Of a stretch of 64,000 nt of DNA, positions 15,590-54,431 are shown one piece after another. A program made the translations under genes and the position numbers. Under the pieces are notes generated by a model. The model made no database searches. It saw only the letters and a list, made by a program, of their open reading frames with translations, and was not told the DNA's origin. The DNA is from Dictyostelium firmibasis (taxonomy: Eukaryota > Evosea > Eumycetozoa > Dictyosteliales > Dictyosteliaceae). Where the stretch lies: positions 3,046,001-3,110,000 of the forward strand of contig CM069766.1 in NCBI GenBank assembly GCA_036169595.1. The letters are read 5' to 3'. Positions within the stretch are counted from its first letter, which is position 1. Each line of letters opens with the position of its first letter.

Positions 15590-18261
<2,672 letters not shown>

Positions 18262-18718: not shown

Positions 18719-20299
<1,581 letters not shown>

Positions 20300-22313: not shown

Positions 22314-23513
22314 TTAGTTATTTAATTTGTCAAAAATTTTTAAAATTGAATTAAATGAATCATCGTTATAAATATTATCCAAAACTTGATCTTTAAAAAC
22401 ATAAATTGATATAACATCACCACCAAATTCATCAATTTTTGTAATTGGTTTTGAATGAGACCCACATAGAATGAAGGTTAAAATAACATGAGTTTTTGTA
22501 AGCAAATTTTCTAATTCTTTTTTGTATGAATCATAATCAACTCTTGCACCGGTACAATAAATTGAAAAAAGTGTAACACTTTTTTGATCGGTTTTTTGGG
22601 TCTCTTGATTGTTTGAATTTAATGAGTTTAAAGATCCTACATTTTCTAAATTAATTTCAATTTTGGATTTTTTATTGTATTCATTATATACTTCAACCTT
22701 TTGATTGATAAAGTTTTTTATTGAACAATAATACTTTTCAGAACTTGAAACATAGTTAAATTTTATATTGTGGAATTTTGGTTTTGATAATTCATTAATA
22801 GGTAATTGTCGATATTTATTGTAATAAAGAAGTTGTTGACCTGTTTGACTCTGTTGACTTGTTTGATTTTGTTGTCCTTTTTGACTTTGTTTATTTTTTT
22901 TACTTTGTTGATCTTTTTTACCTTGTTGATCTTTTTGACTTTGTTGACCTTCTGGACCTAGTTGACTGTAAAGATTTGGTTCATTCTGTTGACTTTGTTG
23001 TCCTTTTTGACTTTCTTGACCTAGTTGATCTTTTTCACTTTGTTGATCTTTTTGACTTTGTTGGTCTTCTTGAGTTTGATGACTATTTACGATTTGAATT
23101 AGTTGTTCAAACATTCTATTATTTAATAGGTCTTGAGTCTCATTTTCTTTAGAATTATTATCGTTATTATCATGTTCTCTTTTTGGGATTACAAATCTAT
23201 AAAAACCATTCAAAATTTTACAAAGTCGGGTCTTTTGTTCGTTCAGATTTTCTACAATTGAATTTGTATTTCCATTTTGAGAATGTATTAATTTTGCCAA
23301 ATATAATATAATCAAATTATGTACTTCAATTTTTTCACAAAATTCTTTATTTTGATTTTTTATCTCATCTTTTACTTTTAGTATTTCATCTTTAATTGAA
23401 ATTTGTTGGTTTTGTTGATTTTGTATTGATTTCAATTCTTCGTATAATATTTTTGGATCTGAAGAAAAATTTCCTTCTATACAAAATTCTAAATATTTAA
23501 ATATTTTTTCCAT
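22314..23513 (-). CDS. Gln-rich repeat protein of unknown function, divergent partner of the VWA-GTPase gene
   Basis: Single exon, 399 residues, no domain recognised. Residues 1-115 are helical with a short coiled-coil character (IKDEILKVKDEIKNQNKEF). Residues about 125-240 carry imperfect repeats of QKDQQSQ / QKGQQSQ type, on a background of Gln, Lys and Ser. The C-terminal 130 residues look globular: SVTLFSIYCTGARVDYD, then VILTFILCGSHSKPITKIDEFGGDVISIYVF. That alternation of hydrophobic strands and helices resembles a small alpha/beta fold. It starts 316 bp from and opposite to the VWA-GTPase gene, so the two probably share a promoter. Whether they work together is inference. Confidence 0.75.
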   Translation of the reverse strand: MEKIFKYLEFCIEGNFSSDPKILYEELKSIQNQQNQQISIKDEILKVKDEIKNQNKEFCEKIEVHNLIILYLAKLIHSQNGNTNSIVENLNEQKTRLCKILNGFYRFVIPKREHDNNDNNSKENETQDLLNNRMFEQLIQIVNSHQTQEDQQSQKDQQSEKDQLGQESQKGQQSQQNEPNLYSQLGPEGQQSQKDQQGKKDQQSKKNKQSQKGQQNQTSQQSQTGQQLLYYNKYRQLPINELSKPKFHNIKFNYVSSSEKYYCSIKNFINQKVEVYNEYNKKSKIEINLENVGSLNSLNSNNQETQKTDQKSVTLFSIYCTGARVDYDSYKKELENLLTKTHVILTFILCGSHSKPITKIDEFGGDVISIYVFKDQVLDNIYNDDSFNSILKIFDKLNN

Positions 23514-23829: not shown

Positions 23830-25928
23830 ATGTTTGACAAAGAGGATAATTTAATATTTGGAGAATCCTTATTAACAGATTTGGAATCAAATATAATTAC
23901 ATACACAATAATAGTTGATACAAGTGGGTCAATTTCCTCATCGGTTTTTTCTACAGTAAAGTTGTGTGTCTTGGGTCTTATTAAAATAATTTCAAAAGAG
24001 AGCAAAATATCTGTGATTAATTTTTCAAATGATGCCAAAGTGGTTTCAGAATATAAAACTGACAAAAAAAAATTAGAAGAAGAAGTAGAGAATGGTAAGT
24101 TTGCATCTTTCTATAAATTTAATTTTGACAATAATACTAAAATATAATATGAATAGGACTTCATCATTTGAGTGCTGGAACAAATTTAATTTCTGCACTA
24201 GAATTAGCATCAATGAGAATTGATTTATTTCAACCAAATAAAAAATCAAAGAATATAATTATTATAATTACAGATGGCCATCCTGATAAAGATCCAACAT
24301 TCTTAACCATTGATTTAATAAAAAAAGGAATTGAATTTTTAGGAATTGCAGTTGGTAATGTCTCAAAATCAAATTTTGAAAAAATGTTACCTGGTCAACA
24401 AATTTTTTATTTTGATACATATAAAAATTTGTGTGAAAATATTCAATCAAATTTAAATAAAAAAAAATTTCCGTTATCTTATAAAGTATACCCATCAAAC
24501 AATAATATTCAAAGATCAAATGAAACCTTATTTTTAGATTTCGAAATTTCACCTTCAGCGAATTTGGATTCATTTGATAAAGATACTATTGAAATAAAAA
24601 TTTTAGAAAATGATTATTATTTTGGATTTACTTGTAAAGTCGGGATCAAAATAGATCAAAATAACCCATTTATAGCAAAAATGTGTTTAAAAGTAAAAAA
24701 CAATTCAAAAACAAAAGATTTGCCTAAAAGAATTGAATTTGAAATTGAAATAATAAATGATGTTTACTCTGGTTACTTTCATATGGATTTTGCATGGTAC
24801 AGTGGCGATTTAAAAAATGATTATAATATCAATATAATGGTTGAAGGTCAAATTGGTAATGGTAAATCGTCATTATTAAATTCAATTTTTAATTTGTTTA
24901 CTTCAGATCAAAAGATTCAACACAGTTTCACTACATCGAGAAGTTCTGGTCATGTTACAACTGCTATTGAATATAATCCAATTTTAAATCTTCTAAATAG
25001 TAAATCAAGAGATAGGGATTTTCTTCCTATTTATCAAAAAATTATTGAAAATATAAAAATTACATTAGTAGATAAACCTGGTATGACACTAGAAAATGAA
25101 GGAAGTATTAGTATTCTTAAAGCTAGAGAAGGTTGTTATGAAAATGGTATGTCTAAAGATAATATTGTAGCAGGTCTTCCAAATCCATTTTTCTCAATTC
25201 ATGCTTTCATTTTTGTTGTTTCTATTAAATGTTTTATTGGTGAAGAAAGTGATCTTAAAATGGTTAAAATCAAAATCGAAGAATGTATATCAAAAGCCAA
25301 GATTAAACCAATTCTAGCTATTACTTTTTGTGACCATTTTAGTAATGAAGAATTAGAATCTTGTAAAGGAGATATAGAAAAGTTACCTGTTGATAAAGAG
25401 AATGTGTTTTATTTTTTATCATATATTGATAATGAAACAAAACGTGATCCAAATAAAGACTTCATTGCTTGGAATTTATTAAAATGTGCATTTCAAATTG
25501 GTAAACAAACAATAGAACTTGAACGTGTCAAAGATTCAAATAGACAATACTTTAATAATATTATAAATAAATACAACAACAACAATGATAACAATAATTA
25601 CAATAACTTAAGTACAGGTATAGTTGGAGAATTTTCAAGTTCAAACTCGTTGAATCTAAATCTCCCACTTGAAAATGTCTCTCTTGGAATGATTACATCA
25701 CCAATTAAACCATGGACAATTTCAGTTGAGGAAGGAAATAGTACATTTAAATTCAGGGTATCGCCAAAGATCACCTTGGATAATTTTAAATTAGATGTTT
25801 CAAAGCAAATAGAAAAAGACCCATCTGCATATTACTTCGAAGATGATCAAGGTTGTATTTTATCGGGAAAATCCACAATTGATGAACTATTAGATAATAC
25901 ATCAAAAATAACAATTGTTTACCAATAA
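23830..25928 (+). CDS. VWA domain + IFI44-like GTPase + ubiquitin-like C-terminus
   Basis: Two exons, 23830-24094 and 24157-25928, giving 678 residues. Residues 20-200 form a von Willebrand A domain with an intact MIDAS: DTSGS at 30-34, the Thr in SAGTN at about 97, and the Asp in ITDGHPD at about 128. A beta-rich middle follows. The GTPase domain has P-loop GQIGNGKS at 319-326, a DKPG switch motif at about 394 and a GLPNPFFSIHAFIFV segment. This layout resembles interferon-induced protein 44 GTPases. The G4 motif is weak (TFCDHF). An Asn-rich linker leads to a final 75 residues that read like a ubiquitin-like beta-grasp (FKFRVSPKITLDNFKLDVSK, then CILSGKSTIDEL). Function is unknown. The order suggests metal-dependent ligand binding coupled to a GTP switch. 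Confidence 0.82.
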
Positions 25929-26715: not shown

Positions 26716-30118
<3,403 letters not shown>

Positions 30119-34264: not shown

Positions 34265-34925
34265 TTATTTCTTAATTTTATTTTTAAAATAAGAATAGGA
34301 AATACCAGATCCCATTGTTAAATTTTCAAGTTGTGAATAATTTATATTTGAATATTTTAATAGTAATTCAGTACAATTAATTTGATTATTAGAAATTGAA
34401 AAAGCTATAATATCATTAAGTTTTGTTGGTGTAAACCAACCATTACCTTTTGATTTCTTTTTAAGAATTTCACAATGATGTTGTTGAATATGTTCTAATA
34501 ATTTTAATTGACCAATTTCACAGATTTTAAATAAAATACTATAAAGAAAATCTTGAACAATACGGTCACCTTTTTTTTGATTCACTTCTTTCATAATTAT
34601 ATCAAAAGCATCGATGTCACATTCTTGAACTATAAATTCAATAATTAATTCAGTAATACTATCTTTTTTAACACCTTTCGAGAATAATTCACCAATTTCA
34701 TTGGTTCTACCAGTTAGATATTTAAAAATTATTAAATTTTTATCATTAACTAATCCATCTTTTGTAATTGGATAATTAACTGAAAATAGCCAATCTAAAA
34801 ATTCTAACATATGAAAGGGTGGTTTTTTACTAGTTTCTAGATATTTACAACAATGAATAAAAAATGAATCGATTTTAATATCAGTATTATTAACAATGTA
34901 TTTTAATAAAGTGATTAAATCATTT

Positions 34926-35019
<94 letters not shown>

Positions 35020-36717
35020 CATATAATGTTGTTGGATTAAATGAAAATTCTTTAATTTCATAAATTTTTTGATGATTTTTAACAACATGAGTAATCATTG
35101 GTAAATTGAATGAACTTTTTTTAATGTTTTCACCAGATAGGATAATTTTCTTTTCACTAATAGTATCATTGATATTCTCTAATTTTTCAAAAGATTTTAA
35201 TAGTTCAATATTTGAAAGACGTAAAATAAATATTTCTAAACCATGATTAAAAAGATTTGTTTTAAATTGTTTATAAAGAAATTCTAACATTTCAACTGAC
35301 TTAATATAATCTGATACTATAATATTTGGTTTTTGAAATGTAAATGGTGATTTATCATTTAATTTATCAATTGAAAACTTTAATAATTCTATATCATCAT
35401 TTTGAATTAATAGAAGTAATAAGAAAAATGATAAACCATTATTATTATATTCTATATTAATGAAATCAATCCATGATGAAATAAATTCTTTTTGATTTTC
35501 TTTAGAATGATAATGAGTAAATAAATAATTTCCTTTAAATCTATTATCATTATCATGTGTAATTACAGTTTTTTCAAATTCCTGTAATCCTTTTGGATGT
35601 TTAAATAGTTTAAACAATAGTTCAAGATTTCCATATTGTAACGACATTTTACAATTTGTTTGATGAACTGAAAATCTACCCTTATCATTCTCTAAATTAT
35701 CAAAACAAATATAATATTCAAAATCTATTTCTGAAATATTAGATTCTTTATACCAATGATTTAATAATTGCTTTATGATTTGTTTATTTGTATTTTCATT
35801 TAATTGCCAATTAATTGGATTAATTAACTCTGATTCTAATTGATCATTTGTAAATTGTTTGAAAATTTGATCATAATTATCAATGGTTTTATTTTTAATA
35901 TTTAATAATTGATCTAAAACTTTACAACTTAATATTAAATCTTTTAATTTTAATTGATTTGAAATTGGTGAGCTTGTTGGTGGAAATAATGATATTATAA
36001 CATCTTTAATAATACTACTTTTTTCTGGTTTTTTTATTAAATTATTCTCTAATAAATATAAAATTGTTTGAAATTTTTCTTTTTTATAATTCATATTTAA
36101 TTTACCATAAAAATCTTGAGATATATTTGTTGCTGCAACTTCTTTCCAAATTAAATCATGATTGTTTTTATTATTTATATCAATTATTAATTTATTTTTT
36201 CTTTCTTGATTTTCATCATCAATCAATAGATATTTAATGATTGGTAATGAACTATAAACTATTGTATTTATAAAGAAATTATTAAATGTAGGTATAAAAC
36301 CTAATTCATTCATTAATACTTTTAATGCTGGTACACAATTATACATTATCATATTTCTTAAAAATTTACTAGAACTAATAATATAATCTGGAAGTGTTGA
36401 ATTTTGATATTCTTCAATTACTTTTAAATCTTCAATGAAATAACCATAGTTTTTAAATAGATTTTTAAAAAAATTATACGTATCTTGATCATCAGTTTGA
36501 AATTTTGAAAAGATTAATTCAAAGGTTTTATCATAATTATTACTTTTACTATAACTTAAAAAACAACTCTCTTTAGTATCAAGTGAATTAAATACAAGGT
36601 ATTTATCATTATTGTTTACTCTATCTTTGAAAATTAACCATTGGTCATTTCTTAGTAATTTTTCAATTGAAAACATTAAATCATAATTTGGTGATAAATG
36701 TAGCTTTATTGATTCTT

Positions 36718-36764
<47 letters not shown>

Positions 36765-36862
36765 GATATTATTTCCTTGTTTTCTAAATGTACTGTTTTT
36801 TGTTTTTTTTTACCAAAATCTGATTCTAATTCAGAGTTATGTTCTTTTTTTTTATTTGGCAT
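34265..36862 (-). CDS. Ankyrin-repeat-like helical protein, Dictyostelium-type, unknown function
   Basis: Single exon, 865 residues. A basic N-terminus (KKKEHNSELESDFGKKKQK) and a run of about 15 Thr precede helical-pair repeats of ankyrin type across most of the protein. Examples are MYNCVPALKVLMNELGF, YSSLPIIKYLLIDDENQ, IQNDDIELLKFSIDKL and SNNQINCTELLLKYSN. Consensus is degenerate, as in many Dictyostelium ankyrin-like proteins. An Asn run interrupts residues about 615-645. No catalytic motif, signal peptide or membrane segment is seen. The start is the first in-frame ATG after an A/T-rich leader. Confidence 0.75.
34928..35019 (-). repeat. (AAT)n Asn run in the ankyrin-like protein
   Basis: About 30 pure triplets in frame, located between helical repeats. 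Confidence 0.95.
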
Positions 36863-37487: not shown

Positions 37488-44981
<7,494 letters not shown>

Positions 44982-52097: not shown

Positions 52098-54431
52098 ATG
52101 GCGGATTTATTAAGCACAAATTCTATGAGATCATATGATCAAAAACAAACCACACCACCTTTAACACAACACCAACAACAACCGCATCAACAACCAAAAT
52201 CTATTTTGAATAATGATGGTAAAAATTCATCGATTGGGTCAGGATTTTCTTTACCAAATCCAGGTTCAGCAAGAGCTTCACCTGTAACATTTTTAACGGA
52301 AAATGTACAAACACCATCTCAAACTAATTCACCAACATCTTCAATTAGAGGTTATAATGTAAATTGTAATATCCCAAATAATAATAATATTAACAATAAT
52401 AATAACCCAGCATCAAAAAAATATAAAGAAATTTTACCAAATCCAATGAATAAACAACAATCATCATCCTCTTTATTATCGACACCTACCCCATCATCTT
52501 CAATATCCCCTACAAATACAAATACAACAACAACAACAACAACATCTTTATCCTCATCCTCATCTTCATCCTCATCCTCATCCTCATCTTCATCCTCATC
52601 CTCATCCTCATCCTCGTCATCTTCAACATCATCAATAATGAGAACAATTCCAACATTGCAACAACAAAAACAGATTGGAGCTAGCCATTCATTGGATTCA
52701 ATAACATCACTTTTAAATGATTCTTATGATCAACAATCAGATTACTATTGTAAACATTGTTTCAAAACTTACCCGCCCACAACTTTTATTAATAAAGCGG
52801 CTTTTAATAAACATTTAATTACTTGTAGTAATAAGAAAAGAAAAACTGGTGACGAAGGATTTGTTCCAGAATATAATTCAAATAATAATATAACAACTAC
52901 AACTACAACAACATCATCATCGTTTAGTGATTTTAGAAAATTAAATATATATAATAATAAAAATGAAGATTCATCCGAATATGAATATAATAATAATAAT
53001 TCTAATATAAAATCAAAGACGACAAGAGAAACAATGAATATTAATAATTTAAATAATGATTCAGATTCATCACAATATAGACAACCATACTCATCAAATG
53101 ATCATTTAATTGGATTTACACAACCAAATTCATCGCCACCACCAAGTTCACCAAGATGTTCAACCGATTTGGATCAACTTCAAAGTTCATTAAGATTCGC
53201 TCTACTCGATGTCATTGAAGATAAGATAGCTGAAGAAACTGAATTGGAATATATAAGAAAGGACTTTAAAAACATTGGAAATGAAATTATAATTCAAGAC
53301 TTTAAAAAAGAAAAAGAAATACAACAACTCTATCAAGTAATTAATACCGAATTAAAAGAAACAGAAGAAAGAGTAAAGTTTGATATTGTTGACAGATCAA
53401 AGCAAGAAGAAAATCAAATGAAAAAAATGAAAGAAGAACTTTTAGCACAATTCAACGAAATGGAATTACAGTTGAAAAAATTAATTGAAAAACTTCCTAT
53501 CTCGTCAGCTTCTTCTTCTACTTCAACATCATCACCTTCATCATTATTGGAATCAAATATACCAATTCATTCAAATGATACTCACCATCACCACCAAGAT
53601 GAAATTATCAAATCTGAAATTAAAGTTGCATCTCCTTTTATAAAACAAGAATTAAGACAAGAAGAAAAAGATTCACCTCCAGATGAAAAAGAATTGACAA
53701 TTGATGATGAAAATCATGAAAATATTAATAAAACTACAGACAACCTAAAAATAGAAGAAAATAAAAAACTTGATGAAGAAGAGGATCAAACTCCAACCAT
53801 TTCAACGTCAATAATTAAAAATGAGGATGATAAAAATGGTGGAGACCAAATGAAATTGAAAATAACTTTTTCAAAGAAATCATCTGATATTAATTTAACA
53901 AGTAGTGGCTCTTCTAATCCAGTTGTTTCTCCATTGGAAAATGGTAACAATGAAATTGAAAGAAAAGAAATTATTAAAAAAATTGAAGAGATAAAGAAAA
54001 CCATGAATGAAAAAATAATGAATTATAGTGTTGCTTTGGCCACTCAAGGTAGAGAGTTTGATAGAGAAATAACCATTCAATCAAATAACTATGAAAAATT
54101 ATTATCAAAGAAATTTCAAGATATGAAAAAAGATTTAAATGAAAATACTGATGCTCTATCAACTTCTTTTGATATTCTTGATAATATTCTTATTAGTCAA
54201 TCTTTACAACATCAACAAATGCAACAACATTATAAACAACAACAACAATTTCAACAACAACAGCAACAACCATTCCAATCAATTAATCTCCCTCCTGTAT
54301 ACAATAACTCTTCGCACTTTAACTCAAGTAATCTAATAAACCAATATTCATATAATAATTATCAACAACAACAAACCAATCAACAAAATCAAACCAATCA
54401 ACAAAATCAAAAGAAAACTAAATTATTTTAA
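52098..54431 (+). CDS. Single zinc-finger, coiled-coil protein, possible nuclear regulator
   Basis: Single exon, 777 residues. The N-terminal 215 residues are low-complexity (Gln/Pro, Thr and a run of about 30 Ser). One C2H2-like finger lies at about 216-250, with a Cys-x2-Cys pair (CKHC) and a His-x4-Cys end (HLITC). It is flanked by the basic NKKRKTGDE, a plausible nuclear signal. Residues about 355-465 form a long charged coiled coil, and a second lies at about 620-690. The C-terminus is Gln/Asn-rich. The long upstream region with G-box-like elements would fit a developmentally regulated gene. Function is not assigned. Confidence 0.8.
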   Translation: MADLLSTNSMRSYDQKQTTPPLTQHQQQPHQQPKSILNNDGKNSSIGSGFSLPNPGSARASPVTFLTENVQTPSQTNSPTSSIRGYNVNCNIPNNNNINNNNNPASKKYKEILPNPMNKQQSSSSLLSTPTPSSSISPTNTNTTTTTTTSLSSSSSSSSSSSSSSSSSSSSSSSSSTSSIMRTIPTLQQQKQIGASHSLDSITSLLNDSYDQQSDYYCKHCFKTYPPTTFINKAAFNKHLITCSNKKRKTGDEGFVPEYNSNNNITTTTTTTSSSFSDFRKLNIYNNKNEDSSEYEYNNNNSNIKSKTTRETMNINNLNNDSDSSQYRQPYSSNDHLIGFTQPNSSPPPSSPRCSTDLDQLQSSLRFALLDVIEDKIAEETELEYIRKDFKNIGNEIIIQDFKKEKEIQQLYQVINTELKETEERVKFDIVDRSKQEENQMKKMKEELLAQFNEMELQLKKLIEKLPISSASSSTSTSSPSSLLESNIPIHSNDTHHHHQDEIIKSEIKVASPFIKQELRQEEKDSPPDEKELTIDDENHENINKTTDNLKIEENKKLDEEEDQTPTISTSIIKNEDDKNGGDQMKLKITFSKKSSDINLTSSGSSNPVVSPLENGNNEIERKEIIKKIEEIKKTMNEKIMNYSVALATQGREFDREITIQSNNYEKLLSKKFQDMKKDLNENTDALSTSFDILDNILISQSLQHQQMQQHYKQQQQFQQQQQQPFQSINLPPVYNNSSHFNSSNLINQYSYNNYQQQQTNQQNQTNQQNQKKTKLF

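Follow-up and report, generated by a model that had tools for sequence, protein, structure and literature searches.

A two-exon gene at positions 23830–25928 (+) of the window, the 64,000-nucleotide stretch of Dictyostelium firmibasis DNA analyzed here, encodes a 678-amino-acid protein that belongs to a family of modular GTPases. As judged from sequence alignment, the members of this family share a constant linker and GTPase and differ in the heads that precede them; this modular family is the main new finding of this study. With about as much confidence as doubt, we interpret the 678-aa protein as a multidomain, probably cytosolic GTPase of a small dictyostelid family, which would act as a head-sensed, nucleotide-switched assembly with a ubiquitin-like tail.

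Gene structure and the VWA domain

The coordinates given for the gene by the first-pass annotation, 23830–25928, were found to be correct once a 62-nt GT-AG intron (GTAAGT...TAG) at 24095–24156 (+), located inside the VWA domain, was spliced out. Exon 1 (23830–24094, +) encodes the protein start and the first half of the VWA domain, and exon 2 (24157–25928, +) includes the stop codon. The exons are in frame after removal of the intron, and their junction rebuilds the VWA stretch ...EEVENG|LHHLSAGTNL.... The GC contents of exon 1, exon 2, the intron, and the upstream gap were 0.28, 0.26, 0.18, and 0.15, respectively.

The VWA domain at residues 27–179 (23908–24428, +, with the intron within the span) matched the Pfam VWA family with 62.6 bits against a cut-off of 23.8 (E 7.3e-17). 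Its MIDAS is complete by sequence and consists of D30, S32, and S34 in loop 1 (DTSGS, residues 30–34; 23917–23931, +), T97 (24180–24182, +), and D128 (24273–24275, +). The VWA domain with an intact MIDAS, which had been claimed from motif reading, is thus certain as a sequence assignment.

Analysis of the hydrophobicity of the sequence revealed no N-terminal signal-like stretch. The hydrophobic maximum, a 19-residue window at residues 432–450 with a mean of 1.79, was borderline and lay within the GTPase, where it may be a core strand, with membrane contact as the alternative. Since no signal-like stretch was seen and the hydrophobic window was borderline and located in the GTPase, the protein is probably cytosolic.

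A family with a constant GTPase and varying heads

A genome search with the exon-2 protein identified three paralogs on contigs C3, C5, and C4 with E-values of 7.5e-38 to 1.1e-34. After splicing, the paralog proteins are 727, 697, and 665 aa long and have the order VWA, linker, GTPase, and tail. All four VWA-type members were matched by Pfam VWA within an E-value limit of 1. In the alignment, the MIDAS of the paralogs is degenerate, with loop 1 reading ETSSR, ETSST, or ETTSK versus DTSGS: D30 is replaced by E and D128 by G in all three, S34 by R, T, or K, and T97 is A, T, or A. The paralog L003, which keeps Ser and Thr, may have a weakened metal site. The genome search with the VWA domain alone (E up to 1) returned, apart from the query itself, a pair of weak and unrelated matches (best E 0.058); it recovered no paralog, which suggests that the VWA domain is strongly diverged within the family.

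A fifth member was found in exon pieces on contig C1 (L013:2084–4824, about 877583–880323, +) when a paralog GTPase was used as the query. It consists of a B-box-like zinc motif, a region judged by eye to be helical or coiled-coil, a long Asn/Asp-rich stretch, the linker, and the GTPase. This member has no ubiquitin-like tail, and its G3 motif is split by an intron holding a very long TTA repeat. Its B-box-like motif scored 19.8 bits with Pfam zf-B_box, below the cut-off of 24.1 (E 8.7e-4), and on visual inspection its Cys/His spacing is compatible with a B-box. The proposed fusion of three modules stands in that VWA, GTPase, and tail occur together in one protein, but it is not unique, since three paralogs are built alike and a B-box-like motif and helical region replace the VWA domain in a fourth relative.

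The linker (residues 191–310; 24462–24821, +), delimited from the family alignment, is specific to the family and common to all five members; a PDB sequence search with it yielded no significant match. A varying head on a constant linker and GTPase would fit a receptor head placed on a switch core. The family also offers a natural experiment, with one head containing an intact metal site, three with degenerate sites, and a B-box-like motif in place of the fifth.

The GTPase domain occupies residues 311–539 (24822–25508, +), as delimited by Pfam, the family alignment, and profile comparisons. The G1/P-loop GQIGNGKS (residues 319–326; 24846–24869, +) is conserved in all five members. In G3 (DKPG, residues 394–397; 25071–25082, +), D and G are invariant in the five, and the same is true of T, F, and D in G4 (TFCD, residues 478–481; 25323–25334, +). 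A post-G4 motif, YIDNETKRDPNKD (residues 511–523; 25422–25460, +), is also present in the presumed IFI44 sequence described below. With G1, G3, G4, and the post-G4 motif starting at residues 319, 394, 478, and 511, the motif order is ordinary. The segment GLPNPFFSIHAFIFV, quoted by the first-pass annotation as resembling IFI44, lies at residues 428–442 of the GTPase. The best Pfam GTPase family for the 678-aa protein was Septin, with 20.2 bits, below the cut-off of 26.2 (E 4e-4), and AIG1 had an E-value of 0.097. No GTPase model passed its Pfam cut-off, no model was above the cut-off in an NCBIfam scan of the protein, and four further loci of the genome conserve the domain. At the level of sequence, the GTPase of the 678-aa protein is real.

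In a tree of the five GTPase sequences, the 678-aa protein paired with the B-box member with a support of 0.93, on long branches. GTPase identity between the 678-aa protein and the other members is 28–37%, three of the four VWA members have a degenerate MIDAS, and contig C1 carries a relic of the family (C1:542433–542519, −; L014:2434–2520), a 29-residue match with an internal stop. These features would be expected if the family were specific to its lineage, fast-evolving, and largely dispensable, with no fixed role, but the GTPase motifs are kept in all five members and the paralog reading frames are open after splicing, and we consider this explanation very improbable. A second decayed linker stretch, in a different frame, was observed near the relic.

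Relationship of the GTPase to IFI44, septins, and AIG1

IFI44 and IFI44L are GTPases that vertebrates produce in response to interferon, and relatives of them occur in molluscs. The human IFI44 sequence used in all comparisons was not a database record; it is what we take to be the human sequence and is called presumed IFI44 here. It was scored, at equal search-space size, with a GTPase profile of the five family members. The GTPase part of presumed IFI44 obtained 23.4 bits (E 4e-4) and the whole protein 21.9 bits (E 0.0012), whereas the highest score among 700 controls, which comprised 699 shuffles and one reversed sequence, was 9.3. After the P-loop columns were removed, presumed IFI44 scored 16.5 bits (E 0.062) versus 9.4 for the controls. 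By hhalign, the family profile and presumed IFI44 were collinear over 206 columns with a probability of 95.9% and a score of 49.9, which was reached by none of 150 shuffles (best 13.7).

In the PDB, the five-member profile matched septin-3 best, scoring 18.0 bits over its whole sequence (E 0.019) and 12.2 bits over the best single stretch. By hhalign septin-3 reached 93.8% with a score of 44.4, its piece having been chosen by the profile, which favors septin-3. The 30 control GTPase sequences of the D. firmibasis genome, obtained from 32 loci and including three genes represented twice and several partial sequences, reached at most 41.4%, the top one being the AIG1-like L066. Presumed IFI44 was thus the highest by hhalign among the 32 sequences compared, and septin-3 was a close second. 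When members were compared singly with presumed IFI44, the 678-aa protein gave 50%, the three paralogs 62–93%, and the B-box member 0.4%. With a profile lacking the 678-aa protein, the score of presumed IFI44 dropped to 17.2 bits, approximately the septin level.

The post-G4 motif, written as Y-x(5-9)-D-x2-K-D, occurred in all five members and in presumed IFI44, and in none of the 32 control GTPase loci, some of which represent the same gene. As an indication of chance occurrence, the pattern was found in one other of the 42 long frames in the window.

These comparisons provide good support for placing the GTPase in the septin/AIG1/IFI44 group, nearest to presumed IFI44 and with septins close behind. 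The nearness to IFI44 is a profile likeness of the GTPase domain and does not imply orthology. The first-pass annotation had called the domain IFI44-like; this description is retained insofar as IFI44 is the nearest relative (95.9%, presumed sequence) and has the post-G4 motif in common, but it is tempered by the nearly equal septin-3 (93.8%) and the weak Pfam matches.

As an alternative, which we hold to be clearly less probable than our interpretation, the GTPase may be of septin-like or paraseptin type, strongly diverged and serving as a scaffold for membranes or the cytoskeleton, with no particular tie to IFI44 or immunity; the VWA domain and tail would then be adaptors in housekeeping assembly. 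Such a relationship is suggested by Septin being the best, sub-cut-off Pfam family and septin-3 the top PDB match over most of the family GTPase. However, presumed IFI44 scored higher with the same profile, even though the septin-3 piece was favored by being picked with it, and the post-G4 motif is common to the family and IFI44, the compared septin-3 piece stopping before that region. In addition, G4 is TFxD in the family and AKAD in septins. Even if a defense role is not borne out, the family would still be an example, from outside animals, of interchangeable heads on a GTPase core of septin/IFI44 type.

The GTPase of IFI44 is collinear with that of the family, but the 678-aa protein differs from IFI44 and IFI44L in joining its GTPase to a VWA domain, a family-specific linker, and a ubiquitin-like tail. 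IFI44L has a TLDc domain before its GTPase; unlike IFI44L, the 678-aa protein had no TLD match in the whole-protein Pfam scan. TLDc–GTPase fusion elsewhere in the genome was considered and set aside: six TLD matches were present, two of these loci were read, and a GTPase was in neither frame. AIG1/GIMAP proteins supplied the nearest control GTPase, L066, yet it remained far below IFI44 and septin-3.

Like the present protein, CPRas of Dictyostelium combines a VWA domain and a GTPase, there a circularly permuted Ras, in a single eukaryotic protein, according to the parts of that report available to us (PMC2430557). In CPRas, as described there, the GTPase is Ras-type, has the motif order G3-G4-G5-G1-G2, and precedes the VWA domain, whereas here the VWA domain precedes the GTPase, whose motifs run G1-G3-G4 (CPRas: PMC2430557). 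The motif positions show that circular permutation of the CPRas kind is absent from the 678-aa protein.

The predicted ubiquitin-like tail

The GTPase is followed by an Asn-rich low-complexity tether (residues 540–602; 25509–25697, +) and a predicted ubiquitin-like tail (residues 603–678; 25698–25925, +), which was delimited by profile comparisons. The reference for the tail was an alignment of 19 ubiquitin-family domains from the same genome. The 76-residue tail aligned to it end to end by hhalign with a probability of 30.6% and a score of 25.0, whereas none of 150 shuffles reached this score (best 11.0). Among 32 windows along the 678-aa protein, those clear of the tail scored at most 9.6 against the same alignment. 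A profile of the four tails scored 17.7, versus 11.7 for the best of 150 column shuffles. In a PDB search at E up to 10, the four-tail profile matched 20 sequences, 19 of which were ubiquitin, ISG15, or RAD23 (E 0.17–1.1), and 16 of these 19 were in register with the second strand and first helix of ubiquitin. The top match was a heavy-metal binding protein.

Taken singly, the three paralog tails did not exceed shuffles against the ubiquitin-family domains, and a profile of the paralog tails alone recovered no ubiquitin in the PDB search. Pfam gave only a weak PI3K_p85B match on the tail (E 0.027). The structure prediction proposed as a check by the first-pass annotation was uninformative for the tail alone (single-sequence AlphaFold2, mean pLDDT 47.2), and another AlphaFold2 model, with a pLDDT of 35, was too poor for a fold search. 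We assign the tail as ubiquitin-like with moderate confidence: for the C-terminus that the first-pass annotation called beta-grasp-like, likeness to ubiquitin-family domains is seen in the 678-aa protein, with its score of 25.0 against a shuffle best of 11.0, but not in the paralog tails, which singly were no better than shuffles. The protein ends in TIVYQ and lacks a C-terminal Gly-Gly, which means that the tail is not a conjugated modifier.

The presence of a MIDAS and a ubiquitin-like tail in one chain, with a flexible tether between them, raises the question of a head-to-tail latch, in which the MIDAS would bind the protein's own tail in the manner of Rea1. In the available parts of a report on Rea1, its MIDAS is described as binding ubiquitin-like domains, with a glutamate of the UBL completing the MIDAS metal site (PMC6624252), which provides a precedent. 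In that system, as far as described there, the two modules likewise occur as binding partners, but the MIDAS and the UBLs, Rsa4 and Ytm1, are on separate proteins, and Rea1 has an AAA+ motor (PMC6624252). Compared with Ytm1/WDR12-type UBLs, the tail ranked 825th of 1004 sequences (four tails and 1000 shuffles), the Notchless/Rsa4 type being outside this profile. A Rea1-style latch by homology was consequently rejected, the match to Ytm1/WDR12-type UBLs being no better than that of shuffles. By eye, the residue of the tail that aligns with glutamate E80 of Ytm1 is Thr, and the tail is kept in three paralogs without an intact MIDAS. We consider a latch of this kind, which is drawn by analogy, unlikely.

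Proposed mechanism and possible role

MIDAS domains engage acidic residues via a metal. In our preferred interpretation of a head-sensed, nucleotide-switched assembly, the VWA domain would bind a partner via an acidic residue bridged by the metal. Nucleotide-driven pairing of GTPase cores is usual in septins and GIMAPs, and partner binding together with such pairing would convert the protein from a latent form to an assembled one and back. The tail may dock machinery that recognizes ubiquitin, such as the proteasome, Cdc48, or autophagy adaptors, and the paralogs with a degenerate MIDAS could be co-assembling or regulatory partners. The likeliest setting, which we infer solely from the usual company of these domains, would be the cell-autonomous handling of ingested microbes.

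The first-pass annotation suggested that the protein may be a defense or membrane-remodeling switch. A defense role of the 678-aa protein is plausible by analogy, as suggested by IFI44, the B-box head, and the lifestyle of the organism. No genomic link of the gene to defense genes was found. Both IFI44 and IFI44L are strongly induced by interferon, and to our knowledge their mechanism is poorly understood. The wider proposal, that IFI44-type GTPases are not confined to animals and that the dictyostelid GTPase core with exchangeable recognition heads (a metal-binding VWA, a degenerate VWA, or a TRIM-like B-box and helical region) and a ubiquitin-like tail forms a cell-autonomous defense switch against microbes that are ingested or invade, is one that we regard as doubtful. 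An IFI44-related GTPase in a tractable, bacteria-eating amoeba would offer a knockout model, and its head and tail hint at input and output.

A review of cell-autonomous defense in D. discoideum lists, in its available parts, homologues of TRAF, TRIM (a single one), GBP, and STAT (PMC5758549). An infection transcriptome reports up-regulation of GTP-binding proteins, mostly of Ras type, and von Willebrand and B-box are not mentioned in the portions of its main text available to us (PMC6902447). Bacterial conflict systems contain VWA proteins in combination with MoxR ATPases and effectors, and the accessible parts of that article mention no GTPase comparable to the present one (PMC8195603). In titles and abstracts, no description of the family was found, and a gene-number database entry may exist. 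At the same level, IFI44 appeared with Dictyostelium in incidental mentions only, and interferon-induced protein 44 with amoeba in a salmon study.

Distribution and genomic neighborhood

Two pattern scans of prokaryotic contigs gave 593 and 589 pattern matches and two scans of viral contigs gave 452 and 393, with zero confirmed relatives in either set; the phage and plasmid collections likewise contained no confirmed relative. A prokaryotic or viral origin of the family was rejected on the basis of these prokaryote, viral, phage, and plasmid collections.

Upstream, a gene at 22314–23513 (−), encoding a Gln-rich protein of 399 aa, is oriented divergently to the GTPase gene, with approximately 316 bases between the two. 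It is single-copy in the genome and without a Pfam family at E 0.001, and on these grounds it was dropped as a candidate functional partner. The long frames at 34268–36862 (−, 865 aa), 39195–44537 (+, 1781 aa), and 52098–54428 (+, 777 aa) had no Pfam match at the same threshold. At 15636–18261 (−), two adjoining frames each encode one half of a protein kinase, with a PH_3 domain (E 1.6e-35) at the end of the second, and presumably represent a single PDK1-type gene interrupted by an intron. An ADP-ribosylglycohydrolase is encoded at 18722–20299 (−; Pfam E 1.5e-24). Directly downstream of the GTPase gene, pieces of Integrator subunit 7 are encoded at 26716–30118 (+; INTS7_N E 6.5e-47, INTS7_HB E 6.3e-14).
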